64,000 nt of DNA from positions 45,146 through 109,145 of the IMG/VR virus record IMGVR_UViG_3300045125_000169; one strand, given 5' to 3'. The notes under the pieces are model-generated. The model was not told the DNA's origin and did not search any database. It saw nothing but the letters and a program-made list of their open reading frames with translations. This DNA is from a virus. Below are positions 2,986 to 52,489 of this stretch, piece after piece. The translations under genes and the position numbers were made by a program. Within the stretch, counting starts at the first letter, position 1; every line of letters begins with the position of its first letter.

Positions 2986-3114
2986 GTTGGCCCCTGTCCG
3001 AATTAGGTCGTCTTTGTCTTTTTTGGTGAATCTTTGCTTTCGACATTAGAGCGAGCATGACCACAGAGGCAATACCTTTTGACACGCAATCTAAAACAAA
3101 ATTAGTTGAAATTT

Positions 3115-8980: not shown

Positions 8981-10260
8981 TCACGCTCTCTTACAAGAGC
9001 GTTCCGGTATGGTCAGAGTTTCGTGCTTCAGCGGGCAGGTAACCCCACCCTCCACACCTGAGGACGGTTCCCGTCCCGTGACAAAGCCTGTCAAAGCATA
9101 ATTCAAGATCACTCGTGCAGCATTCACATCCCGATCAAGAGTGAGCCCACAACATCCACATAAATGTGTGCGCTCTGACAAAGCCTTTTTTGAACAACTC
9201 CGCATCCGGAGCAGCTTTGCGAAGGTTTGACTTTCCTGGTTGGTATTTCGATGTAGGGAATACCAGCGTCTGCCGCTTTGCATTCCAACAATGTGAAAAA
9301 CTTGCCAGGGGACGTGTCAAGAATACTGCGATTTAAGCCTCTCTTATAAGCACCGCCGTGGACTGTCATGGCTTTGATATTTAGAGCCTCTGTGGCCACG
9401 AGCCGAGACATGCGTACAATGCGGGCACTCATTTGGTGTAAAAAGTCATCACGCTGATCAGCTAGCTTCTCATGGCATGAGACCAGCTTCAACTTGGCTT
9501 TGGCCCTATTCCTGGACCCTTTCTTTTTGCGGGATAAGCTTCGTTGCGCCTTTTTTAATTGGCCATCATACTTTTTGAAGTGGCGTGGATTTTCGATCAA
9601 ATACTGCTTGTTATCTTCAGTAACCATGGTCACAAAAGTGCTAGTACCCCAATCAATCCCAAGAGCCGCTGTGCCACTAGGGCGATGCGGCCTTAGGGTC
9701 GCAAAAGTGATGGATGCGTACCATTTCCGGCCCTTTCGCATGATCTCGACCGTCTTTGGCTTGCCTGGGTCGCGGCTACTCTTTACTTCGTCAACAAACC
9801 TCGGACGTCCACGTGCCTGCAAATTCCCAAGACCGCTTAAATGCAGTGTGCCATTCACATAATCCACATGAGGCTTGAACCTCCACCCATCCCCGTGAGC
9901 CGCATATCCCCAACCCTTAAACCGTTCAAATGCCTTGAACCTCGGAAATCCAGGCGCAGCCTCTCCCGCTCTCACTCGTCTAAAAAAGGCCTGGAACGCT
10001 CTATCCAGACGCCGCAGAGTCACTTGCTCTGACTGCGCATTGAGCGCAGCATATTCAGGAAACTCAGCCCGAAGCTGAGTGAGATCTTTAGCCTGGTCGT
10101 AGTAATTAAGACTCTTACCGCAGCGGCGGTAGGCATCAATGCGCTGCTCAAGGGCCGCATTATACAAACGTTGGTGGAGCCGCATGATCTCGACCATTTT
10201 ATTGGCCTGCTTGGTCGATGGGTAAATGCGGTATGAAACTTTTCGCTTGACCTGATCCAT
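8981..10260 (-). CDS. tnpB: IS605 TnpB, RNA-guided nuclease (transposon-encoded)
   Basis: About 425 codons. RuvC-like catalytic residues are present: Asp in ALGIDWGTSTF, Glu in LVATEALNIKAM and Asp in LDRDVNAARVI. A four-cysteine zinc ribbon (CSGCG...CGCCG) lies between the last two. One break at about 9185-9190: the T6 run on the plus strand needs one more base, changing QKRLCQ to QKKALSERTHLCGCCG and extending the frame to TGA 8981-8983. TnpB proteins cut DNA guided by an RNA from the element's end and help it persist. Divergent from tnpA. Confidence 0.92.
8984..9001. repeat. Subterminal hairpin at the tnpB end of IS605
   Basis: CGCTCT - CTTACA loop - AGAGCG, a perfect 6-bp stem. It overlaps the last codons of tnpB. 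Such hairpins are what Y1 transposases bind, and in this family the same region gives the 3' end of the TnpB guide (omega) RNA. Confidence 0.6.
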
Positions 10261-10284
10261 ACCCCGAACTATGTCTTAGTTCCT

Positions 10285-10697
10285 ATGAAAACGCAATCTC
10301 TAAATACCTTGCATCACTGTGTCTACGACCTAAAATATCACTTAGTTCTGGTGACGAAATATCGTCGCAAATGCATCAACAAGGCGATCCTCTTACGGCT
10401 TGAAGAGCACTTGGCGCGACTTCTCCAGACTTGGGATTGTCAGCTTCTCGAATTTAATGGCGAGGCTGATCACGTCCACCTTTTGATGGCGCTCAATCCG
10501 AAGGCCCAACCTTCCCGACTTATCAATAATCTCAAGACGGTCACGTCTCGCTTGATCCGGAAAGAGTTTGCCGACCATATAAAGAAATACTACTGGAAAC
10601 CGATTTTTGGAGTCGCACCTACTGTCTCCTCACTGTCGGCGGAGCACCCCTCTCAGTGCTCAAGCAATACATTGAGAATCAGACCGAGGTCGAGTAA
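10285..10697 (+). CDS. tnpA: IS200/IS605 TnpA, Y1 HUH transposase
   Basis: About 137 codons, the usual family size. HUH motif in EADHVHLLMAL and the catalytic-Tyr helix in VLKQYIENQ. One break: the T5 run in CCGATTTTTGG at about 10602-10606 needs a sixth T to read KPIFWSRTYCLLTVGGAPLS and stop at TAA 10695-10697. It catalyses single-strand excision and insertion of the element. Confidence 0.93.
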
Positions 10698-10708
10698 AGG
10701 ACCGCTCA

Positions 10709-10723
10709 CTTCGCTGCGCGAAG
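10709..10723. repeat. Hairpin downstream of tnpA (probable IS605 right-end signal)
   Basis: CTTCGC - TGC - GCGAAG perfect stem-loop, 12 bases after the tnpA stop. It is flanked by a further short complementary pair (ACCG...CGGT). Position and shape fit the TnpA recognition hairpin. Confidence 0.5.
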
Positions 10724-10800
10724 ATCACGGTGTCGGCCTTCACCACCAACCAAGCCTCAGACGCCTTTAGCGACTGGCCGACTTTTCGATAGGCGGGGAA

Positions 10801-31853: not shown

Positions 31854-32558
31854 TTAGAGGCTCACATCCAGGGCAACGGTCCAAGACTCATCACCAACCC
31901 AGTATTTTTCAAGACGCAAGCCGACTTTTCGACTGAGTTCTAATCCTATCCCCGCGTTGACGTATAGTTTTTCATCGCGCTCATATTCAAAGCCTGAACC
32001 GAGAACGGTGAAACGAGCTTGACCCTCATTTTCTTCAAAGATAACTCGCTCGACGCGACCATAGAAATTGATTTTAGGTATACGGTAGCGCACACCCGCA
32101 CCACCTGTCACCATTTTAGAGTCAAGCTCAACCGTTAAGGGTCTATCCATGATGAAGTCGGTATTGAACTTCCAGTTTTCCTGGTTGTAGCGCACAAGAC
32201 CCAGCACATAAAAATCACGCAGAACTTGCCCACCGACGTCCAGACCAACATGAACCTGATGGCCGTAAGTGCCTTCGAGGTCCATCGGACCATAAAATCG
32301 ACTGTGAGCAAGATGTCCCATACCGACGTTCACAGAGACGTTGGATGTCACAGGGGCAGAAATTCCAAGATGGCCTCCGAGACCTTCCACTTGAAACTCA
32401 GTGTCACTGGGTCCTATATATGATCTATTGAGGTTTTGCAGGGCCGCAGTGACAGTCGTTTGCTCCGGCAGCAGTGGTGTAAAACCAAAAGCACAGGAAT
32501 TGTAAGACACAAGTCCTTGCATGGTAAACATCAAGATGACGCTGAGAATCAGCCGCAT
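31854..32558 (-). CDS. Outer-membrane beta-barrel protein
   Basis: Start ATG 32556-32558 is chosen for GAGGAATCT upstream and because it begins the signal peptide (MRLILSVILMFTMQGLVSYN). The mature part alternates short amphipathic strands with tight turns (VSVNVGMGHLAHSRFYGPMD, GHQVHVGLDVGGQV, MVTGGAGVRYRI, LYVNAGIGLELSRKVGLRLE). It is about 210 residues, the size of an eight-stranded barrel. Phage-encoded barrels such as lambda Lom alter the infected cell's surface; here the gene sits inside the tail operon. Exact role unknown. Confidence 0.7.
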   Translation of the reverse strand: MRLILSVILMFTMQGLVSYNSCAFGFTPLLPEQTTVTAALQNLNRSYIGPSDTEFQVEGLGGHLGISAPVTSNVSVNVGMGHLAHSRFYGPMDLEGTYGHQVHVGLDVGGQVLRDFYVLGLVRYNQENWKFNTDFIMDRPLTVELDSKMVTGGAGVRYRIPKINFYGRVERVIFEENEGQARFTVLGSGFEYERDEKLYVNAGIGLELSRKVGLRLEKYWVGDESWTVALDVSL

Positions 32559-32565
32559 AGATTCC

Positions 32566-32940
32566 TCAATGTGTGGCAACAGTCTGCTCTAGCTTCTTAC
32601 CCTCATAGCTCGCGTATGACCCCGGTAGTTTGAATCTCACAAACGTATAGCCGACCTTCGTTTCACCTTGTTCATCTTGAGACGGTTGCATCAAGAGACA
32701 AGCCTGTTCGCGCACGTTTTCCGAGAGTTCTTCGGAGTTGGCAACAATCTTAAGCTCACCGTTTTCCTGCTCCAAGATGCGCTCGTTGCGCAGGAAAATC
32801 GCCATTTCGATTTCGCACGTCTCGGTGTCGAAGTAAGTGACGTAGGGAATCACTTGACCTGTGCAGTCATGGACTTTGTATTTAAAAGAGTCTGGGCTAT
32901 TGCGGCTGATAATCACAGTAATACCTCTTTGAGAGTTCAA
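32566..32940 (-). CDS. Hypothetical protein (124 aa)
   Basis: The frame opens with TTG 32938-32940, overlapping the stop of the upstream small gene, so the start is somewhat uncertain. Mostly beta (GITVIISRNSPDSFKYKVHD, TKVGYTFVRFKLPGSY). It overlaps the ribosome site of the barrel gene. Unrecognised. Confidence 0.5.
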   Translation of the reverse strand: MNSQRGITVIISRNSPDSFKYKVHDCTGQVIPYVTYFDTETCEIEMAIFLRNERILEQENGELKIVANSEELSENVREQACLLMQPSQDEQGETKVGYTFVRFKLPGSYASYEGKKLEQTVATH

Positions 32941-34770: not shown

Positions 34771-35769
34771 CTATCTGACGTAGGATTGTTCTCGTTTAAT
34801 CTCGTGGACGGCCTCTTGTAGTGATACATCTTCAAATTCTGAACGAAGTATGGCCTCGATACAATAGTCCGGTGTGAAACCCTGGCCTCGAAAGCACTCT
34901 TTTTGACCGTCCTGCAAAGGAATCCCAGACACATATTCGACAAGCTCAAACACCTCTTCATCCGTAGGCGGGTCCACCTTAATAATCCTGTTGAATCTAC
35001 CAGGACGACTGGTCAACTGAGGCCCAAGCATAGTCAAAAAGTTGGTAGTCGTAATAATCAAAGTCGGAACTCGAAAAAGAGTTTGATTTCCATCCAGGAA
35101 ATTTAAACAAGACGGATTATAAATGCTCGCTCCTGAATTATCTTTGCGCCCAAAATCTTCGATAACAAGAATAATACGCTCGACTTCAGGCGCATATTCT
35201 TGAGAAAAAACATATGTTAGGAAAGAAAAGTCGATGTCACCATTTGTTTGCAGGATCGGTAGTGCTTTTTTGTTTCATGGCTTTTTTGCAGAAGTTGCGA
35301 ATGAGGGCACTTTTTCCCATACCTGGATCAGAGTGCAAGAGATACGAGCGTTTATTTTTTTTAAACTTTAGAATGATATCTTTCTTCTGCAAAAAAAGAT
35401 TGAAGGTTTTTTGCAGATTTTTTGAGGTCTCCGTCTCGAAGTAAATTTCCTCTTGAGACTTAAGCGCAACCCATCCGTACTCTTTGTGGAACTCAAACAT
35501 TCCTGGCCGAATCTGCCATTTATGTTCCCATTCGAGGCGCTCTTGTTTTTCTTTTTCTAAAAGACTGGCGAGATCCTGGTCTTCTTCAGTCTTGACCTCT
35601 TGTGAGGCTTTGCGTCCTCTTTTTTGATTGGCTCATTTTTATAAGAGACGATGAGAGGAACACCGTCCTTGCTCGTAGGTGGTAAAATCGTGAAGCCGCT
35701 TCCCAGAACAAAGCTCGACCCAGGTTTTGCCTCAATCGTTTTTTCGATCACGATCTTACTCGCCGCCAT
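34771..35769 (-). CDS. AAA+ ATPase no. 1, tail-operon associated
   Basis: About 333 codons, broken near 35615 and 35270. An N-terminal region of about 80 residues (MAASKIVIEKTIEAKPGSSF) is followed by a charged linker. The AAA+ core has Walker A LLHSDPGMGKSALIR, Walker B RIILVIEDFGRKD, sensor 1 TLIITTTNFL and an arginine finger region SRPGRFNRIIKVDPP. The SRPGRFN motif is Bcs1/FtsH-like. It is a clear paralogue of the 49465-50461 gene, and both sit next to collar genes. Likely an energy-driven folding or assembly factor for fibres, or a virion component; this is inference. Confidence 0.85.
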
Positions 35770-35795
35770 ACGTCACCTCAAAAAGTATCTTGGGA

Positions 35796-36685
35796 TTATA
35801 TTTTAATTATATAATACACACCTTTGTTGTGAGGTCTAGTTTCGGTGTCACCAGCCCCCAGAGACGTTGTGGGAGTGACGCTATGGGTGTGATCGGTGGC
35901 TGTATTATTGATAGAAACCGACGTGCTGACAGACACCGTATGGGAGTGATTGCCTAAAGCATAGTCGGTATAAGATCCTGTCCAATACACTCCAGGACCA
36001 TCGGCAAGTGCATTCTGACCCGTTGCATGAGTAAAGTTGAGGTCATCTTTATCGCCCATGGGAATTTGGTGATTGTGGCTGAGATTGGTGTCGCCTGAGC
36101 TACCACTACCACCCTGGTTGACACCATGGCTATGACTCTGGCTTTGGCCTGCCGATGTCACTGGTGAATTGGTCAACGCCAAACTATTTTTGGCCGTTTT
36201 ATGCGTTTGCCACCCACCAAGCGTCACAGCATCTCCGGCCCAAGGCGTCCCCACCCCCCTTAGAAATGAACCCCTATAGTCTGGTACTCTAAAATTGCCC
36301 GTGGTTGGATTTGCCCATCGGTTACCTGTGGTTGGGTTAATTTGAAGATCGTAAATAGAAACGATGCAAGAAAGATTGTTACCGATAGTGGCTGGGAATT
36401 GGTTCGTAGTAAAGCTCGTCGCAGAATTGATAGCAGTAATATAGGTGCCATTGGCAAACGGAGAATATAAGTGCCGCTCCGACAACCAAGTTGGCTGTAC
36501 TTGTCGTTGTTACTAGGGTGGAGGCCGAGGTTGACACAGTAATTGTCAAACCAAAAATGGACCACAAGCCTGAGTATGTCAGTTCGGCTATACTCTGCCC
36601 CATCACATAGAAGCCATCCTGTCGGAGCTTGGAGTCCTGAATAAGGCAGGATGACGCCTGAGGGGCAGATGGATAAAATAGCCAT
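35796..36685 (-). CDS. Tail collar domain protein no. 1 (short tail fibre type)
   Basis: N-terminus ILPYSGLQAPTGWLLCDGAE is the phage tail-collar domain. Two breaks (about 36550 and 36480) lead to FRVPDYRGSFLRGVGTPWAG and a long His-rich tail with many HSH/NHSH motifs (ALGNHSHTVSV, DHTHSVTP). This is typical of metal-binding receptor-tip fibres such as T4 gp12. It ends GVYYIIKI, like the other three collar proteins here. Start overlaps the giant-fibre stop (TAATG). Confidence 0.85.
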
Positions 36686-39600
36686 TAGAACATCTCCCAG
36701 TTGGACCCATTGCTCACAACACCGATGACTTCGTTCCGTGCAAGCGTCAGACTCGTCACATCATCAATCGTTTGACTCGAAGTGGTTGCGATGCGCAAAA
36801 GAGCACTACCCGTCAATCTGCTCTTCAGATAATAGACCGTTCCTGAGAAACCAACTGCCGTAGGTAACGTCAGAGTAAGGCCCACGGCTCCGGTTCCCGT
36901 AACAAAATAGTCACTGGCCACCAAGGTGTAACTGGTCGATACCGATTTGTAAGAAAAGGTGCTCGGTGGGCTAGTGTATCCTGTTAGCAACCAACGACCA
37001 ATGCCCGCGTTGTAGTGAACCAAGACGCTTGCTTTTGGTCTCAGCAGGAAGCGACCGCCATCTGGTGTATTAAAGCGCAAAGTAGAAGTTGTTAAGGAAC
37101 TTTCATGCAAAATCGAAACATCGTTCGCGGTTTCATTCACGAGGATGAAGATTCGCCCATCATTTGCGACGTTGATTCCTGTAACCGTTGTCCCAGACTG
37201 AATCCGAAGGATAGGATATCCGTACAAGGTCGTAAGGGTGTTGCTCGTACCATCGATGGTAGCAACCTCAGTCAACACATCCATTTTTGAAGATTGTTGA
37301 TCTGGCCGTTTTCCAAAGCGGCATTATCGATCTGGGTCGCGTTGATTGTACCGTTGAAGAACGACGGACCCTCGACGACTAGGCTGTTTCCACTGAACAG
37401 CGTCAGGTAGTCTTTGGCAGCTTGCCCTGTAGTTAAAGTTCCACCGATGTATGTCAGACCCGTATCGGTGATCGTCAACCTGTTATAAGATTGCTTTTTA
37501 TCGCGGATGGCGAGACATCCCGCTTCAGTGTATATATCCCAATAACCCGTGTTGGTCGTAATCGTCGAGTTCCACGTTTGCAATTCTAACGCTGCGGCAG
37601 AGGACGTGGTGGTGTTGGCGATTTTGAGGACACCCACGCTATCGACGATATTTAAGGAACGGTAGGCATCAACTCCATCGAGAGACGTCGATTTGACTAC
37701 GTTCGACACGTTGGTATTCAGGATTTGATCGCCAAGTGTTGCCTTACCGTTGACGTTCAGTTCCGATGTGAGAGTCAGGGTTCCGATGCCGACTTTTCCG
37801 GTCGTACCAACCACAAAAGGGCTAGAGTCTGGGCTTTGGTCCTCCACTAAAAGGGCATGGCCAAGACCTGTTTGAGTTACAGTCAAAGCTGGGGAACTTG
37901 GAGTTCAAGCTGACCGTTTGCGGTGCGCTAAAGGTCTTGCTGCCTGTAATCGTCTGGGCAGCATTGTGTCGTGAGCACTTCGCTTTCGCTGCCGTTCGGT
38001 CCCACCTTAAACCTAGAAGCCAAGGAGCTATCGTACAAAACTCTAGCTAGGGAAGAAGCTCCGGTTCCCTCAATGGTAAGACCAGAACCTTCTGCGGTGA
38101 CACTTGTTCCACCTTTATTCAAGGTGATATTGGTGTCTTTAACATCGAGCGTCGTCGAATTAACGGTTGCTGTTGTCCCCTGAACCGTGAAGTCACCACG
38201 GACCACAAGGTTATTATTGACCGTAGTTGTCCCTGCGGTAGTGTTGGCCGAACCGATGTTGACATCGGTGGTAGACCCAAAAACACCGTTTGTTCCGATA
38301 TTGATCGTCTTGGTCGAACTTGCCGCAGTAGGGCCTGTTGCAAAGTTATAGATCCCGGAACTGGTTGCAGTGCCTGCAATCGTGATAGCGGTGGACGAAC
38401 TAAAAACACTGCTGCTCACGGCAGTGGTGGTAATATCACCAGGAGTTGACCGCTAGGGTTCCAACGAGCGTGGTGTTGCCTGTCGAGCCTTGCACGACAA
38501 AACGACTACTTCCGACTGTCAAATCGGTGTTGACCTTGAGGCTATCGTCCACAACTGTGTAGTTTTGAAGGGTGGTTGTGCCACTATTCAGGGAACCAAT
38601 CACAATATTTGTTGTCGAATTATTCGCACCATTCGTACCGATGTTGACCACTTTGGTCGCACCAGAAGCCGTGGTTCCGGTGGCGATGTCCACACGGCTA
38701 TTGCCCGTCAAGGCGTCAGCAATATAGACATTCGACACGGTACTGAAGATGTAGGCGCTTGCCCGAGACGACAAAATCGTCGCTGCGTCTAGCGTTAGGG
38801 CACCGGAAACTGAGACATCCGACCTTAGAATGGTCGGTCCTGTCACGTCGAGGAAACCCCTAACGCTTTGGTCACCTTCAACCATGACGGTGGTTGCGGA
38901 GCTTTCGAGCCAATCAGGATGTTGCTCGTGGACCCCGACGCTCCACCTGTTCCGAGGCGGACCTCTTTGACTCTCCCCGAGGCAGTGGCACCACCAGCAA
39001 TCGATAAAAACGAATCCGATGTGACGGCGTTTTCCAGCGTCAAGGATAGCACGTTAGGGAAAGATCAATCGAGCTTAACGTGGTGGTAATCCCACCGTTG
39101 GCCGCTAAAGAGCCTGTGACAACCGTATCGCCCGTTGCGCTATCAACAGTGAACTTGTCCGCGACATTGAATGAGCCGTTGACCTTAAGAGCACCAAAGG
39201 CAGACACTGCGCTTTGGAGATTGATCGATCCAAAAGCTCCGATATTCACTCGCGTTGTAGAACCGGAAACCCCATTGGTGCCGATGTTGACAGTTTTCGT
39301 CGCACCCGAAACTGTTGCTCCGTGAGCAACATTCATCGAGGCTATTTTGCGTGGAAGCCCCGAAAGAGATCGACTGCGGTGAGGCGAAAAGAACCGCACT
39401 GGTTGCGGTCGATGTGATGCTACCGCTTGTCACTAGAAGCGAATCAACCGTTGTGTTACCCGAAGGGGTATCGACCGCAAATTTACTACCAACAGCCAAG
39501 TTGCCTGCAACGGACAGGGTTTTATCAACGCTCGTTGCATTCAAAAGCCGCGTGGTGCCGCTTTCGGACGAGCCGATGTTGACGTTGGTGATAGAATTAG

Positions 39601-42600
39601 GTCCACCATTTGTAGCGATATTCACCGTCTTCGTAGACCCGCTTCCCGTATTTCCGATCGCCAAATTATAAGCGGTCGTCAAAGAACTTGAACCGACTGT
39701 CAGAGACGAGACGTCATTGAAGACAGAGGCACTGACTGCCGTTGTCGAGATTCTTCCATCCCCGACCCATAAGGTCTGAGCGACGTTGACATTACCTTTG
39801 ACCGCAAGCATAAAGTTCGGATCGATCTCAGAGGCTGCGGCAGCAATCGTGGTCGAAGTCGTCGAACCGATCAAAAACCTGCCGCTTTCATCGATGACAA
39901 GTCGGTTTCTTGTTCCTTGGATACGATCGCGAACGACCAAGCGACCACTATCCGCAATCACGTCCCAAAAGGTGATGTTGCTTGTGAGAGTTTCATTCCA
40001 TTGTTGTAAGTCAACACTGGCACCTGTACTCGAATTAACGCGCAGAATCTTAAATTGACCCGCAGTATCCACAATATTAATCGTGCGAAATGCTTTTAGG
40101 CCCGAGGCGATTGAGAGATCAAGAGCATTACTGAGAGCAGTGTTGAAAATTTGGTCGCCAACCAAAAGTTTGCCCCCAACCCTTAAGGCAGGGGTGTTCG
40201 TACTTCCATCGCCTTTAATATAAGCTGTTCCACCGATAAAAGTGTTGCCCGTGGGCACATCGACACTAAAGACCGTGCCGACAATAAGGTCGTCATTGAC
40301 TTTGAGAATGTCATCAACGACCGTATAATTTTGCAGCGTGGTCGTGCCGCTATTCGTTGAACCGATCTTAATATTGGTAGTCGAACCAGGAAGACCATTC
40401 GTGCCGATGTTGACCGTTTTGGTCGCGCCTGACGCCGTAGACCCTGTAGCAATATTGTAAAGACTGTCATCCGACGCAGCCGTTCCAAAGTTAATGGTCG
40501 CTGGGGTGTCGAACAGAGTTCCAATACTTGCCGTGGTTGCTAAAATGCCATTATCACCAACAGTGATACTATCGCTGACTAGCAAGGTTCCATCGATGGT
40601 GACGTTGCCGTAGAGCTTGGTTTCACCAAAGAATCGGATCTCGCCTTTACCGTTGGGTCTACAACAGCATCGGTTTGCCAGGACTGAACCACATAGACTT
40701 TTTCCGCAGGACCAGCCAACGAATAGCTGAAGTTTTCAATATGCACTCCGACAAAAGACTGGCCTCCGTCAGGGTGTAATTGAAAGGCAGGAAAAGTCCC
40801 GTCGCCTACCAAGCGCGTCTCATAGCCTGTCCCAAATAACTGGACGTTTGCAGGCACGGTCACAGGTTGTCGAAACGTCCAGGTGCCTTTTCCGAGATAG
40901 ACGGTCGCTAGGTGATTATCGCGGCTGATGGCATCAAGAGCCGCCTGGATGGATGCTTCATTCCCGCCCGTATAGTCGGCACGAGAAGGTGCCACCGACA
41001 CAGTGAACGCAGTGCGGCCTTCGGCTTCTGCGCTATCGAAAACGCGGTTGCCAATCGCTCGTTCGCCAAAGGCATAACGGTTAGCTGTTTCAAAACGGTT
41101 GCCAATAAATGTGTTGTAAGAACCGTTGACCTGAATCGCTACACCCGTGACAGGCACTCCACCAGAGAAGCGGAAGCCTTGGACCAAGCATCGACTACCA
41201 TCAATTCTTAAAATCGGTGAAACAGGAGTGCTGCCATCAAGACCCTTGATAATAGTGTCTGAGCCAGAACCCCAGGCTGTAATCTCCACATCATTTTTAG
41301 ATGCTGGGATGATAAAGGGATCATAAACCCCAGGCATGACCATGATCTTAGCACCAGACACAAAGTCGTAAACGATGGTGCTTTCATCGACGAAAACTTG
41401 ACCGTCAAGGCGTGTAATAATCACGCTACTACGGTCCAAAACTTCCGTAATCAGGAAGGAACCAATATTCGAGGCATTTCCTGCCGACGAGATGTTGATG
41501 TTGCGGTAAAGATCGTCTTCCGTAAAGTTAAAAGGCAACCCTGAAATCAACGTGTGGGTTCCGGTTCCTAGATCGTTCAGATAGATCGGGGTGCCGTTAG
41601 CCGCAGTCGAGACTTGGAAGGTATTGGCGGTGACGTTGATAATGTAATACCGCACGACCACCGGGCCAAGCGGGGATGCCTCCAACGGGTTTGGTAGAAA
41701 GCCCGTCGTGATAAAAGTCACAGGTTCGTTCGCGGCAAGACCGTGAGCACTGAGGTTAAACGTCGAGCCCGTCGCGTTGTTACCTTGGGTGATGTTGGCC
41801 CCAGTAAAAGAGATCGACCTCGGTGCCGTGAATTTCGCCAAAGCACCAGAAGCCCCACTGATCTTTCCTGGCCAAGTCTGGACTTCGGTCAAACCACCGA
41901 GTCCATCAGCCACACCCTTGAGCGACCGGGGGTGGGTGGGAAGGGCAAGAATCGCGGCACTGATCCCTTGCGCTCCGTTGAAGTCTCCGAAGCTGCGCAC
42001 ACCATCGCCTACAGTCCAGGAAATTTCCCAGCAGGTGCTCCAGTGTGTGGCAAGAAGCGGTTTCGTGCCCCCGACACAACCTTGTACTTGAGGTGCGACT
42101 CGACACGCTCCGACCCGGTTTCCGGGAAATCAATATTTTCAAAATGGTTATCCGAGCCGTTGACCTTGATACCAACGGTCGTCAGACCGATGGCTTCGTT
42201 GTCGTTATTGTCGGCTTGAACAAAAAGGTTTTTAAAAGTGTTCCGGTTCCCGTCCACGTCCACACAGATCGTGTCGAGTAGAGCATTAGCGCGAATGACA
42301 GTCTGTTGCCCTGGGGCACCTATGACCGATTTGCCACTTGACTGACACTTGATCGCGAGATACTGGCCTCGGAAAACTTGGATGATGGTGCCTTCATTTT
42401 CCTCTTGCAAAGCCACGTTGATGGCATTTTCACCGACATAATCACCCCAGCTTACCACCCCGTCACCCACGGTGACCATGGGGTTATCCGACTCAAAGCT
42501 GTTGCCCGTGGTCACGCGACCGCAGATCATCGGGTGGTAGTTGTAATGCTTGGTCGCGGCTGTAATCGGAAATTTGATCGCCGTGCGAACGTCGTTGCCA

Positions 42601-45600
42601 AACTGGACGTTGACGCCAAAGGTGTTATGCACCGCACCTGTCGAGCAAACGATACCAGTCCCTGCGTTGTCGATGAGAAGGTTATCGATTTGGTTATACG
42701 AGCCAGAGATGGTGAATCCTGTAAAATTAGTTCCACCACCGTTGATCTTGACTTTGCCACCACCGAATCCTTGCAGAACCAGATAGCTTTTGGTCCAGAT
42801 CACTTTGTTATAAGTGCCTGGATAAGCGAGGATGACATCGCCTTCACTGGCAGCGTCGTGGGCCTGTTGCAAAGCGTTCGGGCTATTGAAATCCCCGAGC
42901 CAATTTGTGTTGGACCCATCCGTCACAACCCATTTGGCAACGGCTGTTTCCTCGATTTGAGGATCAACCGACTGGCCTGCCCAAACGGTGTGAGTTCCCG
43001 AACCTGTGCCATTCGTGAAGCTCACAAGACCAGATCCGCTCTTACTTGTCGCAAGGCGGAAGCTATTGGTCGCTACGCTGGCGATATAATAGGTAGTGGT
43101 GGTTGAAAGGCCGCTCGGTAAAGCGCCTGTCGAGGTGAGCTTTACTCTGGCCCCGGCTAGAAGCCCGTGACTTGCCGACGTGATGATTGAGTTAGAAAAG
43201 CTCGTGCTATCGAAGGTAACCCTTGAGGGGGAGCGAAACTTGGTCGTCACGGTGCTTTCAAAAACCGCCTTCGTCAGTCGGAAGTTGTCCGACCCTGGTT
43301 GCACATTAACAGCAACCGAGCAGTTTCTAAAGCGGGGTGCAATCGCTTGGAAGCGGTCAGCCACCACACTTAGAACAGTGCTACCTGTGTTTTGTAAGAT
43401 CGCCCCAGGCGTACAATCCAACGTAATATCGTCTTTACTGACGACAAAGTTCCCTGTGTAGGTTCCTGGCAAAAGACGAATGGTATTACCAGAGGACGCA
43501 TAGCTTAAAGCTCGGGTATGAGCCGTTGACCCTGTGAAATGACCATAAGATGAGCTTCCGTCCCCGCAAACAATCACGGCACCAGGGTCGCGGCCTGTGT
43601 GGTAAGGATAAAATTCCAAATGCTCCGGCTCAATCGATTCAATACCGTTTGCCGTGCTGTTGACCTTTACACCCACGGTCGCAAAAAGGTGACTGCCATC
43701 CGTCATCGCAAGAGAGGGAGCAGCAACCGAGTCGAGCGTTGACGCGAAACTCAGATCGGATGTGGTTTCTAGGAGACTGGCGACGTGTTGAACTCTGATT
43801 TTATCGGTCGTCGTTAAGAATAAAGCGTACCGCGTCCACTTACCAGCCTGTCCTGTGTAACTGACAGGGGTAAAGACGTGACGATATTGGTCGTTCCCGT
43901 CCCTGTCGCAAAGTTAATCGAGAACGTACTGGTCAGGTCTACAGGTCTATTGCCGACAAAGCGACGGTATTTAAAACCTTGCAGGTTTTCCGACCTGAAC
44001 AAATTTGCAGGAAAGGTGACCGTTGTTCCACTTGCAGCAATCCCTGCATGGAAGCGAAGCTCTTTGGTCCTATTGATAACGTCTTGAAGCTCCGCAGGGA
44101 TGATACGCTGCGGTCCCATGAGCATGTCCGATTGCGGTAGCCGACTGCGCTCGATCACCGCTTGGGAGTAGAGCACGGTCGCTGAACCGTTGTTCGGGAT
44201 AGCGGAGAGCTTGACATAAAGCTGAAGGGGCTTGCTTAGAGTGATCGCATCTGGTCTTGGAAACGTCCCGTTCAAGGCGCAATGGTCATACGGGTTCAAG
44301 ACCGTGGACAACGCCTCGTCCACATAGACACCATCGACAATCACGGGTGTGAAGTCTTCCTGCGAATACTCCGTGCATCCACCAGACTCGAAAAGAGTTT
44401 CAGTATGGATCAAGTTAAAAAACTGTTTCGCATAGGTATCATCGCAAACGAAAATAGTGCCCGTTCCACCGGAAGTTAGCGTTAAGGCACTTCCGCCTTT
44501 GGATGCGGCAATTTTAAAACTATCGAGCGTGGCTTGAACGACATAGTAATACCCACTGATGGACAATCCACCAGGGAGTCCACCCGTCGTGGTAAAAATA
44601 ACTTTGGTGTTTTCTAAAAAGCCGTGATTGGTCGCGATAAATTTGGAGTTTGTGACGTCCACGGCAGAGGCATCGAAGGTCAACTGCGGGGGGACACCGA
44701 CAACCCAGGTCTCACCCAGAGGAAGCTCAACGTAGTTAGTTCCATCAGGAACATGAATACTGCCCCTTTGTCCGCGAATCCTGGCTTCGTGTGAGGTAGC
44801 GGTTGGTTTGACCAGGAGGAACCGAGTCCGCGCCTTGCAACGCAGCGGCTGTTGTTTCCGTGAGGACGGAAACGTCCTGCTCGGTCACATAACGGTTGAC
44901 AGCACTCGGCACACCGACTGTTCCAACGAGGGCGGCCTTTTCATTTTCGGCAAGATGCTTTTCGTTGATGAAGAGGTTGCGTCGGTGGAAGTCGAGCAGG
45001 GTTGCTGCCGAAGCGGAAGTCATATTGCGGAACACGGACCCATCATAACCCCAAAGCTCGATGGTTCCCAACTCGCCAAAAAGAACAACGTAAAGGTCAC
45101 CCTTCTGCAAGCTCTCTGCGGACGCTTGTGCTGACGCAGCGTTGGGGTCGATACCACCAGAAAAGTTCGAGATCACAATCGACGGAACTGTAGCCCCAGG
45201 TTCTTCTTTTGAAATAACAAATGTGTTGCCGAAAGACCCACTGACACGAGCTTCAAGTTGAAGTGACGAACCCATGGCAAACACTTTCATGTCGCCATCA
45301 AGTTCCGAAGCTCTCAAGGCTTGTTCAAAATTCTTCGCGGTGATGTCCCCGCTTTCACCAATCTCAACAGCATTCGGTGGGAGCGAATACCCGACCTTGG
45401 TGAGTTTCCCATTGCCGCTATCACGAGAAGGATAGCCGATTTGTTGAAAAAGAATTTTTTGCGCGTTGACAACGGTTTGAACGGTGAAGAGACCGTTGAA
45501 AGTTTGTTCCGTCGCCCCTGTGATAATAAATTGCTGCCCAGGAATGAACGTGTGAGTGTTTCCTGGTGCGATCGTCGCGGTAACCGTCGCAGGAGAAAAG

Positions 45601-46495
45601 GTATCGACGACTGAACCACCGACACCGCTCCAGGGTGTGTTCAACGGTGCCTGAAACGAAAACGTATATTCTGTGTACTCTTCGATCGTCCACAACGAGT
45701 TTGCTTGAGCCGCCGTGTTGTCCGAAATTCTAATCGTTTGGTTGGCAAAACCGTGCGGTACTGACGTCGTGACCGTGACAACACCCACACTATCCTGGAT
45801 AGCAGTCAGGATCGTTTTTGGCTCGGGTTGACACGCGAAAGCCCAGGGACCGAAGGACTCGCAACGGGAAAGCTGATCGGAGACACCAGAGGAAAGGAAA
45901 GAGACGTCGCCCCTGTGCTCAAGGAGATCGATGAACCCTCAGCAAAGGTATTGGACGTCAGGTTGATCTCAGCGGTGGCTGGAAAGCCCGAGGTGGCCGG
46001 AAGATCGACTTTGGTGTCTACCACGCCACGGACAACACCGCGCTTAAAACCTTCGACGGAATCCCGGAAGCTAGAGTTGATATGCTCGGGCAGCACGGCA
46101 GTTGCGTTTGCCGGAGGAGTCACGGACGCAAAGCGAATCAACGTGTCCTTTTCAGGGTCGTTGTTGTAAGCCCCTAATGTCATGACTTCAAGCGAGACGA
46201 TAGGCGGCTGAGACTCTAGGTATTTGCAACGTAGAGCAATGACGTTGGTAAGACCCGCGACAATCGGAAGCACTCTTTCTTCCGCTCGCTCTCTCACCAT
46301 CATACCGTCTTTTCCAAAGGCTAAGAAAACCACTCCGTCTTCAGGATTGCCCTTAACGCGCACCTGAAGCGAGGCAGGCTCAGGAACGACGATGCCGCCC
46401 TTAACAATTCCCTTGGGAACTAAGCCTGACAAACGAGCATTTAGGTTTTCTGTAGAATCGACGTTGCGAAAGCCAAGGATTGTCTCAATAGCCAT
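36685..46495 (-). CDS. Giant tail fibre protein (about 3,270 codons)
   Basis: Ten or more overlapping frames rejoin into one. N-terminus MAIETILGFRNVDSTENLNA (attachment end). Modules follow in order: HGL-type modules near 45700, 44650, 43150 and 41720; beta-helix stretches at about 43500-42200 and 41400-40700; five or six repeats of the VNIGTNG...STTNVNIGS type at 40480-38250; SSSPALTVTQTGLGHALLVE near 37880; and a C-terminal domain (LTLTLPTAVGFSGTVYYLKS ... VSNGSNWEMF). Joins checked include 37289-37293 (A5 to A6), 39050 (C3 to C4), 42020, 43850, 44790 and 45830; no convincing start sites occur between the frames. It probably reaches out to bind a host receptor. Some joins may hide real gene boundaries. 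Confidence 0.65.
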
Positions 46496-46513
46496 CTTTT
46501 TGCCTCGGCACTA

Positions 46514-46950
46514 TTAAGTTTTGATCGTGACGGTATAGGTCTCTCGTGAGGATGAGACTTTAAACCGTAGCGGGAAATTTGTAAGCGCATACAAAAACTG
46601 GTCGCCAACCTCTGGTGCATCGGTGGGAGAGCCTACGGGAACATGAGTGACCTGTGCTATCAAACCCAAATTGCTGATCCCACCCACCGCTTCTCCTGGT
46701 TGCACCACGCAGGTGAATTTGGGGCAAGTGGGACCGATCAATTCTACACGGTCTATCGGCTCAGGTCCAAAAACTGTGAGGGGAGTGCGTTCGCATCCGT
46801 GTTGAGGGGCAGGGTGATCGTCGGATTTCCGAGGTCATGACCACCTGCACCCAAAACAAAATGGGCGATCTTGAAGCCGTAACCATAGAGAAGCTGTTGG
46901 GCTTCGAGTTCGCGGCCTTTACGAGTCAACGATACAATAAAGTCTGCCAT
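46514..46950 (-). CDS. Tail-collar-fibre N-terminal-type protein (about 145 aa)
   Basis: MADFIVSLTRKGRELEAQQL...FVLGAGGHDLGNPTIT, then after one T is restored in a T5 run near 46770, SQFFGPEPIDRVELIGPTCP and GGISNLGLIAQVTHVPVGSP. This order (short N-terminal helix, GxGG, P-x-DRVELI, GxISNxGL) matches phage proteins that link fibres to the baseplate (tail-collar fibre N-terminal type). It is placed directly before the giant fibre, which it may attach. Confidence 0.6.
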
Positions 46951-46974
46951 TTAGTGTGCCTCAGAGTTCACTAT

Positions 46975-47713
46975 TCAAATCTTTATGATGTAATTGACGT
47001 AGACGTTCTTCGGTCGCGTTTCTGTTGCGTTATTATAGTTCGCCACACTTACGCTAGGCGAGTGTACATGGTATGGATCTGCGGCATTGACTCCGTGTCC
47101 GTGCGAGCTTTCCGTAGAACCACTTGTGCTTCCAGACGTATGAGACGGCCAGGACTCTTGTGAGGTGGTCGCATCTAGTGTAGCAGGAGTATCCTGATAG
47201 GTTTCCCATACATAATAGCCACCATTACCCTTCCATCCTGACTTAACAGAATATTTTATAAAATCAAAATCATGAGAATGGCTGTGAGACCAATTAATTC
47301 TTCCCGTATCATGGGTATGACTGTTGGTATAAGTGCTCAAATCAGAGTGATTGTGGTAGTGCGATGCAGGACTAGAATTAAACGTAGAAGAAGCATGATT
47401 GTGTTGACCCATACCCGCAGACTGTAGCGATCCGATACCGTTGCCAGTGGTTCCGTTGCTTCTGATGCGGAGATTTTTGTCAGGATCTCTTGTTCCGGTG
47501 CCTTCATAACCTCTAACAAAAACGCCGCGTAAATCTGGTAGCTTAAATGTGGTTGTGCCGTTCCCCACCCCAGGACGTTTGGAGTATGGCTGCAAGGGCG
47601 GGGTACGAGGCTGTAAGTAGTTCCCGCCCATCGCATATCAACCAACCGTCTGGTGGTGCAGAGCCACCAAACATTACAGTCGTCCCCGGTGGGATGGGTT
47701 TAGCGTAGCTCAT
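46975..47713 (-). CDS. Tail collar domain protein no. 2
   Basis: ATG 47711-47713 gives MSYAKPIPPGTTVMFGGSAP and PDGWLICDGRELL. One G is missing near 47568 to reach GVGNGTTTFKLPDLRGVFVR. A His-rich region follows (HNHASSTFNSS, SHYHNHSDLS, SHSHSHDFDF, SHGHGVNAADPYHVHSP), and the end is NVYVNYIIKI. Paralogue of its two upstream neighbours. Confidence 0.85.
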
Positions 47714-47719
47714 AAAACC

Positions 47720-48451
47720 TCAAAATTTAATGATATAAGCTGCGGCTGCGTTGATAGGGCGAGAGTCGGAGTTACCACTATTGGATATGTTTACGGTCAC
47801 AGAATGAAAATGAGTATTGCCAGTATCTGGCCCGTATCCGATCGAATGGTAATGATATGCATAGCTTAAATTTGCCGACGCATAATGATCGTATGATACA
47901 TCGTATGATGGTGTCCTTGCGATATACTGCACGGGGTCTTGATCGACCACATCATCAGGGGTGTCACCAAATACTCTTGCTCTTTGACTTCTAGTTTTAA
48001 AGTCTGCCGTGTGCGAGTGATCTCCCGCACCTCCAAAATTTAGGTTATGACCATGACTTGTATTCGCCGACACTATTGAATGAGAATGAGACATATTGGC
48101 ATCAGGGAGACTACTGGTGATCCCGTGTGTGTGCGTTAAAACGCTGAATATTTGATAAGACCCCACATTATCACCAGTCGCACCGCCCGCAGCTATGGTT
48201 GTTCGGTTATTTCTTGTAGTGTCTCGCCCCGCACCGTTATCGCGGCCCCGTAAAAGGACACCCTGAAGATTGGGAATATTGAAGGTAGACACGCCATCAC
48301 CAGATCCCCATGCTGTACCGATAGCGTTCCAAAGACTCGCATAAGAAATTCGGCTGACCGCTGTTCCGTCGCAGAAGAGCCAACCTTCTGGCGGTGTCAA
48401 GTTATTATAAATTGTAATTGTTCCCGTTGGGGCAAACGCGAAATAACTCAT
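47720..48451 (-). CDS. Tail collar domain protein no. 3
   Basis: 243 residues, intact. Collar motif NLTPPEGWLFCDGTAVSRIS and WGSGDGVSTFNIPNLQGVLL. The His-rich C-terminal half has SHSHSIVSANTSHGHN, GDHSHTADFK and YAYHYHSIGY; ends AAAYIIKF. The intact frame shows what its indel-damaged paralogues should look like. Confidence 0.9.
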   Translation of the reverse strand: MSYFAFAPTGTITIYNNLTPPEGWLFCDGTAVSRISYASLWNAIGTAWGSGDGVSTFNIPNLQGVLLRGRDNGAGRDTTRNNRTTIAAGGATGDNVGSYQIFSVLTHTHGITSSLPDANMSHSHSIVSANTSHGHNLNFGGAGDHSHTADFKTRSQRARVFGDTPDDVVDQDPVQYIARTPSYDVSYDHYASANLSYAYHYHSIGYGPDTGNTHFHSVTVNISNSGNSDSRPINAAAAYIIKF

Positions 48452-48460
48452 GCGATAAAC

Positions 48461-49239
48461 TCAAATCTTGATGATAAAATTAACGTATGCATTACTCGGA
48501 AAAACTTCTGGCGTAACAGTTGCATTACCATTTGTTAGAGTTGGATTATTAGATGTCTGAGCACTATTGGCGTGACTGTGAGTGACGTTCGCAGTAGGCG
48601 CATCTGGATGCCCGTGATTGTTGCTATTCCCGATGCCAACATCGTGAGAATGATGCCCACCACCGCCTGATCGTATGTTTATAGTTGATTCACCTTCCCA
48701 AGCGTCGTAGTTGTTATCATACCTATTTGCTCTGGTGATTTTATTACGATAAGGATAAGTAACAGAATGGTTATGCTGCCATGTATGATCCCCGCCTCCC
48801 CAACCGAGCGACACACCATGCGAATGTTCAGTACCGGAAAATCCCGTCCCATGTCCGTGATAGGTAGAGGGTGAATTTGTAGAACTGGAGAAACCATGAC
48901 CGTGTGTCTCCAGTGCGTTATCTTGAAAACTGCCGACAACATTTCCAACTACAGCACCAGTTTTAATATGAGTCCTTGACGCCTTGTTGGGATCTCTATT
49001 TGAAAGTGTGCCCGTTGCCGATAAAGCATCAAATCCTCGGCAAAAAAGACCTCGCAGGTCGGGCAAGCTAAACGTGTCCGCTGCGTCTCCAGCCCCCAGT
49101 TCTTGCCAATAGCCGCATAGAGTTTTGGATATGCACTTTGGGTTTTAGAAGAACCATCACACAATAGCCATCCATTCGGCGGATTGGAGCCACCGAACGG
49201 TATAATAGTTCCACTTGGCAAGGTGCGGTGATAACTCAT
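48461..49239 (-). CDS. Tail collar domain protein no. 4
   Basis: MSYHRTLPSGTIIPFGGSNP and PNGWLLCDGSSKTQSAYPKL. Near 49096 a G is missing from a G5 run; restored, it reads NWGAGDAADTFSLPDLRGLF. The His-rich tail is the longest of the set (HGHGFSSSTNSPSTYHGHG, GGHHSHDVGIGNSNNHGHP) and it ends NAYVNFIIKI. It is translated just after a 68-residue gene and the AAA+ no. 2 gene. Confidence 0.88.
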
Positions 49240-49248
49240 AGCGTCCTC

Positions 49249-49455
49249 TTAGTCCAAATGCGAGATTCCAAAATCGACGATTAAACCCTCATGGCGTCGG
49301 GTTTGTTTTATAATAGGTAAAATGCGATCTATATGAACATCGTCCACTTCGACTTCCATAGTTCGGTCTGCCTTAATCGCTACGCCTAACTCATCACAGA
49401 GATGCGTTCCATTCTTGGACCAAAGATAATCACCTTTTTGCAGAATTATCTTCAT
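49249..49455 (-). CDS. Small protein between AAA+ no. 2 and the collar genes (68 aa)
   Basis: MKIILQKGDYLWSKNGTHLC then DELGVAIKADRTMEVEVDDV. Intact, beta-rich N-terminus, no TM. Its gaps to neighbours are only 9 bases on each side, so it belongs to the AAA-collar unit. It may be an adaptor or specificity factor for the ATPase; that is speculation. Confidence 0.6.
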   Translation of the reverse strand: MKIILQKGDYLWSKNGTHLCDELGVAIKADRTMEVEVDDVHIDRILPIIKQTRRHEGLIVDFGISHLD

Positions 49456-49464
49456 TTTTATACC

Positions 49465-50461
49465 TCAGAGATCTTCCCAAGACATGAGACCATCTCGTTC
49501 TTTAATAACGTCCATAGCCGCTTTTTCAAGCGGAATACCCTCAAGATCATGCCGCAACAGTGCTTCAATCACATGGTCTGGTGATAAAGGAAGACCTTGA
49601 AATGCTTTTTTCTGATCGTCGCTAAGAACAATTCCCGAAAGATCTTTGATTAACGCAAAAACTTCATCCTCAGTAGGAGGCAGAACTTTAATTAACTTAT
49701 TGAATCGTCCGGGTCTGTTCGTTAGCTGAGGGCCTAGTTGTCTAATAAAATTAGTTGTACACAAAATCAGAGTTGGAACTCGGAAAAAGACCCGTAAATC
49801 CGTCCAAAAAGTTGAGGCAACTGGCATTCAATATGTTGCAATTTGAAATATAGTCTCTTTTTCCGAAGTCCTCAATGATGAGGACAATCCTACTCACGTC
49901 TTCTCTGTACGATCTAAAAAATATGTTGGTCAACTTGCTGAAATTTACATCACCGTGAACCTGTATGATAGCCGTACCTGGGGTAGCGGCAAACTCGCAA
50001 AAGTTACGGATAAGTGCTGACTTCCCCATGCCTGGATCAGAGTATAAGAGATAGGCGCGTTTATTCCGTTTGAATTTCTGAGAAATATGGTCGGATTTAT
50101 CGAAGAAATTTTGAAAAAGGCTCTTTACATAGGCACTTGTTTTTGTCTCAAAAAATTTATCTTCGGATTGCGGCATCGCGACCATGCCGTTTTCTTCATC
50201 ATAAAAATGCTTGCCTGGTCTGATTTGAAATTTTTCCTGAAACTCTTGCTCCGCGTCTAGTTTCGCTTCCTGACGCCTCTTTATGATCTCTTGAATTGTA
50301 TCAGGCACCTCATTCGGTTCGATTTCAGTCTTCTCGATCTGATAGGTTACTACTTTCCCGTCCACAAATGAAAATCCTGAACCGGGGCTTCCTGCAACGG
50401 GTATATTCACGCCTTTCTTTAATTTCGCTACATCGATAATTTTTAACTTTTCTATTTCCAT
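49465..50461 (-). CDS. AAA+ ATPase no. 2, tail-operon associated
   Basis: About 332 codons. N-terminal region MEIEKLKIIDVAKLKKGVNI, helical linker PDTIQEIIKRRQEAKLDAEQ, then Walker A YLLYSDPGMGKSALIRNF, Walker B RIVLIIEDFGKRD, sensor 1 TLILCTTNFI and TNRPGRFNKLIKVLPPTEDE. One break near 49785, where the paralogue's sequence (FLDG..LFRVPTL) shows that one T is extra. Same domain layout and very similar motifs to AAA+ no. 1, so they arose by duplication together with collar genes. Confidence 0.87.
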
Positions 50462-50473
50462 GAAGTATCCCTC

Positions 50474-52489
50474 TTAAACAATGAGCCAACCTGATGTTCC
50501 GTCGCTAACTAAACTTACTGCTTCATATCTTGCTAAAAGAACGGGGTTTGTCGAACCATCTATGGTTTGTAAAGCCGCTGCTGCGACTTGGATAAACGAG
50601 GCGGAATTATTACTTTTCACGAGGATATGCCGACCCCGATTCGCTGATGATATCGTAGGCAGCGTTACAGCTAAGGTCGTCGATCCAGTAGCAATCACAA
50701 TGTAATCATGATCGGCAACTGTGTAGTTAGCTTGTACGCTCGTCATCGCCCTCGTTGTGAAGGCAGACGAAAAACTCAAAGAACCAATCACTTCTGTGGT
50801 CTGAGCAATATTTAAGTCAGCGCGAACTGTGCCCGCAGAAGACGTGCTCACGATATTGGTGCCCGTCTGACTGTAGGTAAAAGTAGTTGCATTAGGTATA
50901 GAAGCTACCGTAAAGGTTCCATTGACGGATGTATTGGCAACAGCGTTTACGGTAACAGTCGCACCGGGATAAAAACCATGAGCCGTAGAAGTAATAATTG
51001 TGACAATATTAGATGTTCGAGCGAGACTCGAAATAGTCGCTATTCCCCCGATTTGAAGGCTCGTACTGATATTACCTCTTCCTTGCACAAGTAGTTGTTG
51101 CATGGAAGCGACATCAGAGGAAGAGTCGGATAAAACTAAACTTTTAGCTTTCATATTTTGCAACGCACCAGCATCATCGACGATATTCATCGATAATGCC
51201 GGTGTATGTAATATACCAGTGGTGGTGCGGATATCCCCGACCACATCTAAAGTTTGAGTGGCCGCACTGGAAATGTTGGTCGATAGAAGGAGTGTCTTCG
51301 CCCTGATATTTTGACTGGCACCAGCATCATCGACGATATTCATCGAAACGGCTGGGGTGTGTACTAAACCTGTTGTCGTCCGAATGTCGCCTATCACATC
51401 TAAGGCTTGGCTGGCGATGGAACTAACATCTCCGACTTTTAAAGCCGTCTTGATTGCAAGCCTACGGGTTCCAGTGCTATCTAAAAACTCATTGCCCGTC
51501 GAATTATCAAATAGTCGCGTTTGAATATCGGGTCCAATCACAGTTTCGCGAATCTGTGAAATTGCACCCGTAGTTATAATCATTTCCCTAACGGTATTGA
51601 CTCCGAAGTTACCCGTCCCAGATTTGGCAGGTGCCGTAGACACACCAAACCCGCTACTATAAACTTCGACGTTACAATTCCGAACTCCGTTGCCAGACCC
51701 ACCATCAAACACCACGACCTGAGGTAGGTTTCTTAATTGTAAAGAAAGAACACGAGACCCGTTACCAAGCGTCCCGCTGGTACTACTGCTTGTCGAGCGA
51801 ATATAAAACGCAGTGGTCATGGAACCCGCGTTTTCAATGATCGTGCCGTAACCCTCGCCTTCGATCGTCAGGGTTTTCCCCGACCAAGAAAGTGCCGCAG
51901 AACTGCTGATGACACTGTTTCCTGGACCTGTGAGGTTATAAGTTCCGGCAAGAACTAAAATTCGATCTCCATCCAAGGCGTCATCAATCGCACCTTGAAT
52001 CGTGGTGTGGGTCGCAAAAGGATTGGTGGCACTGCCCACAATCGCATCATAAATCGAGGTTCCCCTCGTCACACCTGCTTTCGTCCACTGGGGAGCAGCA
52101 AGAACAACCCAGTTGCCCAAAGTTACAATATCATTTGTTGATGTTCTAAGAAAAAGCTGAATCCAGTTCGGACGGGGTTTTTGTTGGGACGAAACATCGG
52201 CAATCAACGAGGTTCCGAGAACGACTGTAGTCGTTCCCGCAGTTCGTCTGATTTCAATCCAAATCGAGGTGTTGGAACCACTTAAGGTGTAAGACCCGTC
52301 CGGTATAACCGTGATTGCGGGAGCCCCACCGTCGTTTGGAGTGCTTATAATCCGGAGATTTCTCGTATCGACCTTATTAACCGCGCTATCCCAGCGCATC
52401 TCTCCGACAAGGCGAATATTACGATCGTTAAATAGTTCACCGAGCTTGCGTGGCTGATTAGTGACAGGATCGATCACATTATTAAGCAT
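50474..52489 (-). CDS. Tail fibre protein with beta-helix and repeats (671 aa)
   Basis: Intact. N-terminal fibre-type region (LGELFNDRNIRLVGEMRW), then a pectate-lyase-like helix (HTTIQGAIDDALDGDRILVL...AGTYNLTGPG). Two near-identical repeats of LDVIGDIRTTTGLVHTPAVS / MNIVDDAGASQNIRAKTLLL type follow, then an HGF module and a C-terminal domain (TVADHDYIVIATGSTTLAVT, SLVSDGTSGWLIV) homologous to the giant fibre's end. Directly upstream of AAA+ no. 2. Confidence 0.8.
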   Translation of the reverse strand: MLNNVIDPVTNQPRKLGELFNDRNIRLVGEMRWDSAVNKVDTRNLRIISTPNDGGAPAITVIPDGSYTLSGSNTSIWIEIRRTAGTTTVVLGTSLIADVSSQQKPRPNWIQLFLRTSTNDIVTLGNWVVLAAPQWTKAGVTRGTSIYDAIVGSATNPFATHTTIQGAIDDALDGDRILVLAGTYNLTGPGNSVISSSAALSWSGKTLTIEGEGYGTIIENAGSMTTAFYIRSTSSSTSGTLGNGSRVLSLQLRNLPQVVVFDGGSGNGVRNCNVEVYSSGFGVSTAPAKSGTGNFGVNTVREMIITTGAISQIRETVIGPDIQTRLFDNSTGNEFLDSTGTRRLAIKTALKVGDVSSIASQALDVIGDIRTTTGLVHTPAVSMNIVDDAGASQNIRAKTLLLSTNISSAATQTLDVVGDIRTTTGILHTPALSMNIVDDAGALQNMKAKSLVLSDSSSDVASMQQLLVQGRGNISTSLQIGGIATISSLARTSNIVTIITSTAHGFYPGATVTVNAVANTSVNGTFTVASIPNATTFTYSQTGTNIVSTSSAGTVRADLNIAQTTEVIGSLSFSSAFTTRAMTSVQANYTVADHDYIVIATGSTTLAVTLPTISSANRGRHILVKSNNSASFIQVAAAALQTIDGSTNPVLLARYEAVSLVSDGTSGWLIV

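Follow-up and report, generated by a model that had tools for sequence, protein, structure and literature searches.

Why should two AAA+ ATPase genes lie among the tail-fibre genes of a phage, each in the company of genes with tail-collar domains? The stretch of DNA that raises this question (the window; 64,000 nucleotides) comprises positions 45146-109145 of an IMG/VR virus record of 109,145 bp. The record comes from a large tailed phage and covers part of its genome; genes for a terminase large subunit (phrog_17415, E=9e-93) and for a portal protein (phrog_16240, E=1.1e-97) lie in the left part of the record. The genes of the two cassettes, A and B, are as follows.

34771..35769, minus strand: AAA+ ATPase copy A, ~330 aa; two frameshifts near 35600 and 35250 (pieces 35769-35557, about 35632-35237 and about 35274-34771)
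35796..36685, minus strand: collar-domain gene A, frameshifted (36685-36260 + 36509-35796); PF07484 at 26.1 bits, phrog_523 tail collar at E=8e-7
36685..37284, minus strand: fibre C-terminal piece, upstream of collar A, ending in ...NEVIGVVSNGSNWEMF
46975..47710, minus strand: collar-domain gene B3, frameshifted, start approximate; phrog_523 tail collar fibre at E=8e-10, PF07484 matches at G000:92703-92831 and 92660-92716
47720..48451, minus strand: collar-domain gene B2, 243 aa; PF07484 at E=5.8e-17
48461..49239, minus strand: collar-domain gene B1, frameshifted (49239-48949 + 49144-48461); PF07484 at E=1.1e-15, matches at G000:94205-94357 and 94188-94241
49249..49455, minus strand: 68-aa small partner protein (MKIILQKGDYLW...), of a family conserved in 8 cassettes
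49465..50461, minus strand: AAA+ ATPase copy B, ~331 aa; one frameshift near 49775 (frames 50461-49751 + 49827-49465)
50474..52489, minus strand: fibre-like protein, upstream of copy B, 671 aa

The cassettes of the window

The first-pass annotation had described two paralogous AAA+ genes at these spans, and so we found them: both are on the minus strand, their products are 49% identical over the full length, and the motifs read there are present (Walker A SDPGMGKSALIR, Walker B IEDFG, TTNF, and [NS]RPGRFN). The gene orders were also read correctly, with fibre, AAA, 68-aa protein, and three collar genes in cassette B and fibre, collar, and AAA in cassette A. Copy A is 48-51% identical to the other full-length fibre-linked AAA proteins described below; copy B is 61% identical to that of contig L036 and 58% to that of L037. 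The PF07484 (tail-collar) matches lie 253 bp from the AAA span in cassette B and 809 bp in cassette A, and the domains recognised near the window AAA+ genes by Pfam and PHROGs were of AAA type and collar type only. The ending of the fibre piece at 36685..37284 recurs before collar genes in L011, L013, and L051. The fibre-like protein at 50474..52489 gave no strong match in a family search; by eye, its C-terminus resembles the '...QTIDG...LVSNG.SW' fibre ends that precede collars in L011, L013, L037, and L051.

Frameshifts split many genes of the window, including those for RNR, collars, fibres, and both AAA+ proteins. Since so many others are split in the same way, the breaks in the AAA+ genes are likely indel error in the contig and not pseudogenisation. 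Across the whole window, the many single-base frameshifts suggest long-read indel errors, and ORF-based annotation of the record is fragmentary.

Several other features were observed. The RNR large chain (790-3045, minus strand) is interrupted by a LAGLIDADG-bearing intein, and the terminase gene at L005:996-3824 carries a LAGLIDADG insertion too. An IS200/IS605-type element occupies window positions 9127-10767, where an OrfB/TnpB-like gene (PF01385) is adjoined by an apparent TnpA-like gene on the opposite strand. Amid the fibre genes, 31857-32579 (minus strand) encodes a predicted outer-membrane beta-barrel with a signal-like N-terminus (PF13505 at 22.4 bits, below the cut-off), possibly a superinfection or receptor-masking protein.

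Recurrence of the AAA-collar neighbourhood

The AAA protein or its profiles were searched against 2.9 million IMG/VR viral contigs, of which 15 more proved to encode close relatives, at about 47-65% identity. Near-duplicate pairs (L013/L014, with identical AAA proteins, and L049/L050, at 99.7%) were collapsed to leave 13 distinct contigs; with window copies A and B, these make 15 cassettes. A last, independent IMG/VR scan using largely different peptide patterns returned zero additional contigs. A close AAA relative was absent from 50,697 phage records, and tblastn with the AAA against cultured phages gave weak matches only (<=31% identity), in replication or metabolism regions. The search of GTDB genomes yielded no close relative and one distant match, on a contig that is probably from a phage and in which no collar gene was seen in the vicinity. 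Members seem confined to one (rare) lineage of uncultured large phages, and for that reason the cassettes are not independent.

A PF07484 tail-collar gene was located within 3.4 kb of the AAA gene in all 15 distinct cassettes, the nearest match being 127-1438 bp away in 14 of them and 3367 bp away in G014. The family exceeded its curated cut-off in 15/15 records searched. In G001, the match nearest the AAA gene is below that cut-off and falls in a fibre protein; the adjacent collar-like genes are weakly recognised, and the gene between the AAA and this match encodes a Gp10_C/collar-like protein. The product of the per-gap chances is ~1e-13 with contigs treated as independent, a figure that overstates the case because the contigs are homologous. 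The varied gene order and strand provide a stronger argument for linkage than this probability. The linkage is not chance, because it recurs in 13/13 further distinct contigs found by the AAA alone. Besides the two orders of the window, the following layouts were observed.

L012, L013: three collar genes, small protein, AAA
L035: collar, small protein, AAA
L009, L011, L058: collar, AAA, collar
L008: collar-like gene, 78-aa protein, AAA, S74 fibre
L036: AAA convergent with small protein and collar
L037: AAA and small protein convergent with three collars
L049, L051: AAA opposite the collars
L056, L057: AAA opposite the collars, small protein adjoining a collar

The AAA, the collar fibres, and the small protein, suspected at first pass to be a dedicated unit, form a conserved genomic module (15/15 cassettes), shuffled in order and with the small protein found only where the AAA is. 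Between L009 and L011, DNA similarity is mainly in the adjacent collar and the AAA, and a single further match of 255 bp falls in the fibre region upstream. L056 and L057 share 98% identity around the AAA and 92% identity in the fibre gene that flanks it, but the tip genes between differ. This pair represents a natural receptor-binding swap.

Three tandem collar genes of ~244 aa each, with overlapping stop and start codons, were observed at L013:5171-7364 and L012:496-2689. Their products measure 244/244/244 aa in L013 (57-59% identical within the set) and 244/246/242 aa in L012, nearly equal lengths, as expected for a heterotrimer or for alternative tips. Metal loading of histidine-rich collar C-termini was considered and set aside: histidine content ranges from 1.4 to 8.5% across AAA-adjacent collars and is thus not a general feature of the substrate.

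Other observations count against a dedicated role. Collar genes also occur far from the AAA in the same genomes (at the contig ends of G001, at G005:23057, and at G007:136-3367), and collar fibres are present in many phages that lack this AAA. In several contigs the AAA is on the strand opposite the collar genes and is therefore not co-transcribed with them. An invertible fibre switch, suspected from this frequent opposition, was rejected when five loci revealed no convincing long flanking inverted repeats.

The ATPase and its small partners

The fibre-linked AAA is by its sequence a classic AAA ATPase, with PF00004 scores of 22.4 (L008), 31.0 (L036), and 29.2 bits (L037) against a cut-off of 21.2. 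Walker A PGMGKS, Walker B IEDFG, TTNF, and NRPGRF are invariant in an alignment of 14 sequences, which leaves out frameshifted copy A, where the last motif reads SRPGRF. The ATPase is under strong purifying selection, with dN/dS about 0.08 (0.075-0.081 in four pairs; 0.13 in one near-identical pair).

A single-chain predicted model of the AAA (pLDDT 77, pTM 0.65) had BCS1 structures at the top of its fold search (E=6e-12, TM 0.41-0.48). The best sequence matches were BCS1 and YjoB for L008 (nearest single-sequence PDB) and VCP-like ATPases for L037 and profile A3. All of the nearest folds and sequences belong to protein-remodelling AAAs (BCS1, YjoB, VCP-like, AFG2), which suggests a classic AAA of the remodelling type whose domain resembles those of BCS1 and YjoB. 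We do not call it a BCS1 member, because the AAA has no transmembrane stretch (the highest 19-residue hydropathy, 1.07-1.5, falls inside the AAA domain) and no Pfam match to BCS1_N. The AAA had no MoxR match, and neither it nor the small protein matched fibre-chaperone families (Tfa/gp38/gp57A) in Pfam or PHROGs. Pore-loop length was dropped as a BCS1 signature; Walker A-to-B spacing failed to separate the families.

Relatives of the 68-aa protein (70-205 aa) were found in L012, L013, L035, L036, L037, L056, and L057 and share the motif MK-xxxx-KG-xxx-W-xxx-G-x-H. The protein adjoins a collar gene in 8 cassettes and is missing from 7, one of which, L051, is on a contig that ends within the AAA. 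An IMG/VR scan with the small-protein alignment recovered six contigs, all AAA-bearing; the search pattern was derived from these same loci, and so the result is supportive but not independent. The 68-aa protein is predicted to form a compact domain (pLDDT >90 over residues 1-50), for which a fold search gave no structural match (best E=1.6). The small partner proteins tested had no Pfam match, and searches with the AAA N-domain and the small protein returned nothing informative. A second small family (YV-x-x-YK...FWKK-like, 78-83 aa) was observed near collar genes at L008:7740-7976, L009:9967-10203, and L058:4556-4804, in cassettes without the MKxxxxKG protein, which it might replace as partner.

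Candidate role, rivals, and known systems

The reading that we favour, with a probability of roughly one half, is that the AAA is a chaperone that uses ATP to assemble or remodel receptor-binding proteins of the collar type and has the small protein as its adaptor. The enzyme would be a ring-forming classic AAA dedicated to the collar-domain receptor-binding proteins of the virion. It would most likely bind folded or partly folded collar proteins and spend ATP in helping them to form or dock as fibre trimers; alternatively, it may free misassembled or chaperone-bound collar intermediates. Where present, the small MK-xxxx-KG protein may serve as adaptor or co-chaperone. Action on collars is the simplest explanation, because both collar clusters in the window own a copy of the AAA and the small protein tracks collars. 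The assembly or remodelling role is suggested by AAA biology and by the roles published for AAA proteins in viral assembly (MoxR-vWA and BCS1 proposals, PMC7824862; Pvc15, PMC11495950). A more elaborate version, that an AAA ring and small adaptor assemble tips from three paralogous collars of equal length, possibly as ordered heterotrimers, with the tips swappable and the enzyme kept, is doubtful.

The main rival is hitchhiking in a recombination-prone fibre locus: the AAA would be an accessory (moron-like) gene with its function elsewhere (counter-defence or host takeover, for instance) and lodged beside collars by shared recombination hot spots. Fibre loci are indeed mosaic, as the conserved AAA and differing tip genes of L056 and L057 illustrate, and the AAA frequently occupies the opposite strand. 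We nevertheless consider this rather unlikely: the AAA is kept in every cassette found, is duplicated with the second collar cluster in the window, is tied to a small protein that itself neighbours collars, and belongs to a clade never seen away from them. It is also quite unlikely that a BCS1-like translocase is at work, moving a folded protein (virion cargo or structural) across a barrier during membrane-proximal assembly, with the fibre location secondary. BCS1 is among the best PDB fold and sequence matches, and Iyer et al. proposed such a role for jumbo-phage BCS1 proteins (PMC7824862), but the missing transmembrane stretch and BCS1_N match argue against it, as does a linkage that is specific to collar genes, with one copy per collar cluster in the window.

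The first-pass annotation had tied its proposal to homologues staying near collar genes and to the AAA+ proteins not being ordinary replication or packaging ATPases. The former expectation holds for close homologues (>= about 47% identical) but not for distant ones (about 23-39%), which occur in nucleic-acid/metabolism neighbourhoods in two of the phages that also have a fibre-linked copy, as well as in unrelated phages, not beside fibre genes. The two phages in question carry a second, distant AAA paralogue, at L027:8869-9867 (G001) and L060:9775-10773 (G014). That of G001 is 32-39% identical and sits beside DnaB-like and PolIII-alpha-like genes; that of G014 has RNR genes and a ligase-like gene nearby (named here from their sequences). 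Such neighbours favour a displaced, loader-like AAA of replication type with a DNA role, merely sited in the fibre region. In a tree, however, a branch with 99/98 support separates the fibre-linked AAAs from both second AAAs, and no replication genes surround the window copies. Because two phages carry a second AAA near nucleic-acid genes while also encoding the fibre-linked kind, the latter is not simply the replication ATPase, and we regard the displaced-enzyme explanation as improbable. A virion component or adsorption-stage remodeller, as opposed to an assembly factor, would fit a gene amid structural genes, but the AAA lacks structural-protein features and a soluble ATPase would require ATP outside the cell; this we consider very improbable.

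If the chaperone reading is true, there are phages that pay an energy cost to fix or exchange the proteins by which they recognise hosts, a function is found for some of the BCS1-like ATPases of large phages, and the helper proteins needed for laboratory expression of such fibres have been identified.

The known conventional tail-fibre chaperones (T4 gp57A/gp38, Tfa, and the Alteromonas phage V22 chaperone) are small and ATP-independent. Like the AAA described here, they are encoded near fibre genes, where they aid fibre folding or trimerisation, but the protein here is an ATPase. The first-pass view that no such system had been described stands in part. The literature searched, mostly without subscription papers, yielded no description of an AAA ATPase that keeps a place next to receptor-binding collar genes together with this small protein. 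Jumbo phages have, however, already been described as encoding BCS1-like ATPases, which were proposed to be assembly chaperones (Iyer et al. 2021; PMC7824862), and AAA chaperones that act in the assembly of virions are published as well. With BCS1-type proteins (mitochondrial BCS1, Bacillus YjoB, and phage BCS1 orthologues; PMC7824862), the fibre-linked AAA has in common the classic AAA domain and a Walker B that reads ED; it differs in lacking a membrane helix and a BCS1_N match, in its other N-terminal domain, and in its fixed position beside collar fibre genes, for which we found no counterpart in descriptions of phage BCS1. The MoxR-vWA pair (Acidianus two-tailed virus tail; group 2.2 jumbo phages; PMC7824862) is likewise an AAA+ protein with a partner proposed for viral tail or virion assembly, whereas here neither MoxR nor vWA was matched, the partner is small and unrelated, and the linkage is to collar genes. 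Pvc15 of extracellular contractile injection systems is also an AAA ATPase encoded with a phage-tail-like machine, for which it acts as chaperone and loader; it has tandem AAA domains and loads effector payloads (PMC11495950), whereas the fibre-linked protein is ~330 aa, has one AAA domain, and is encoded beside fibre tips.
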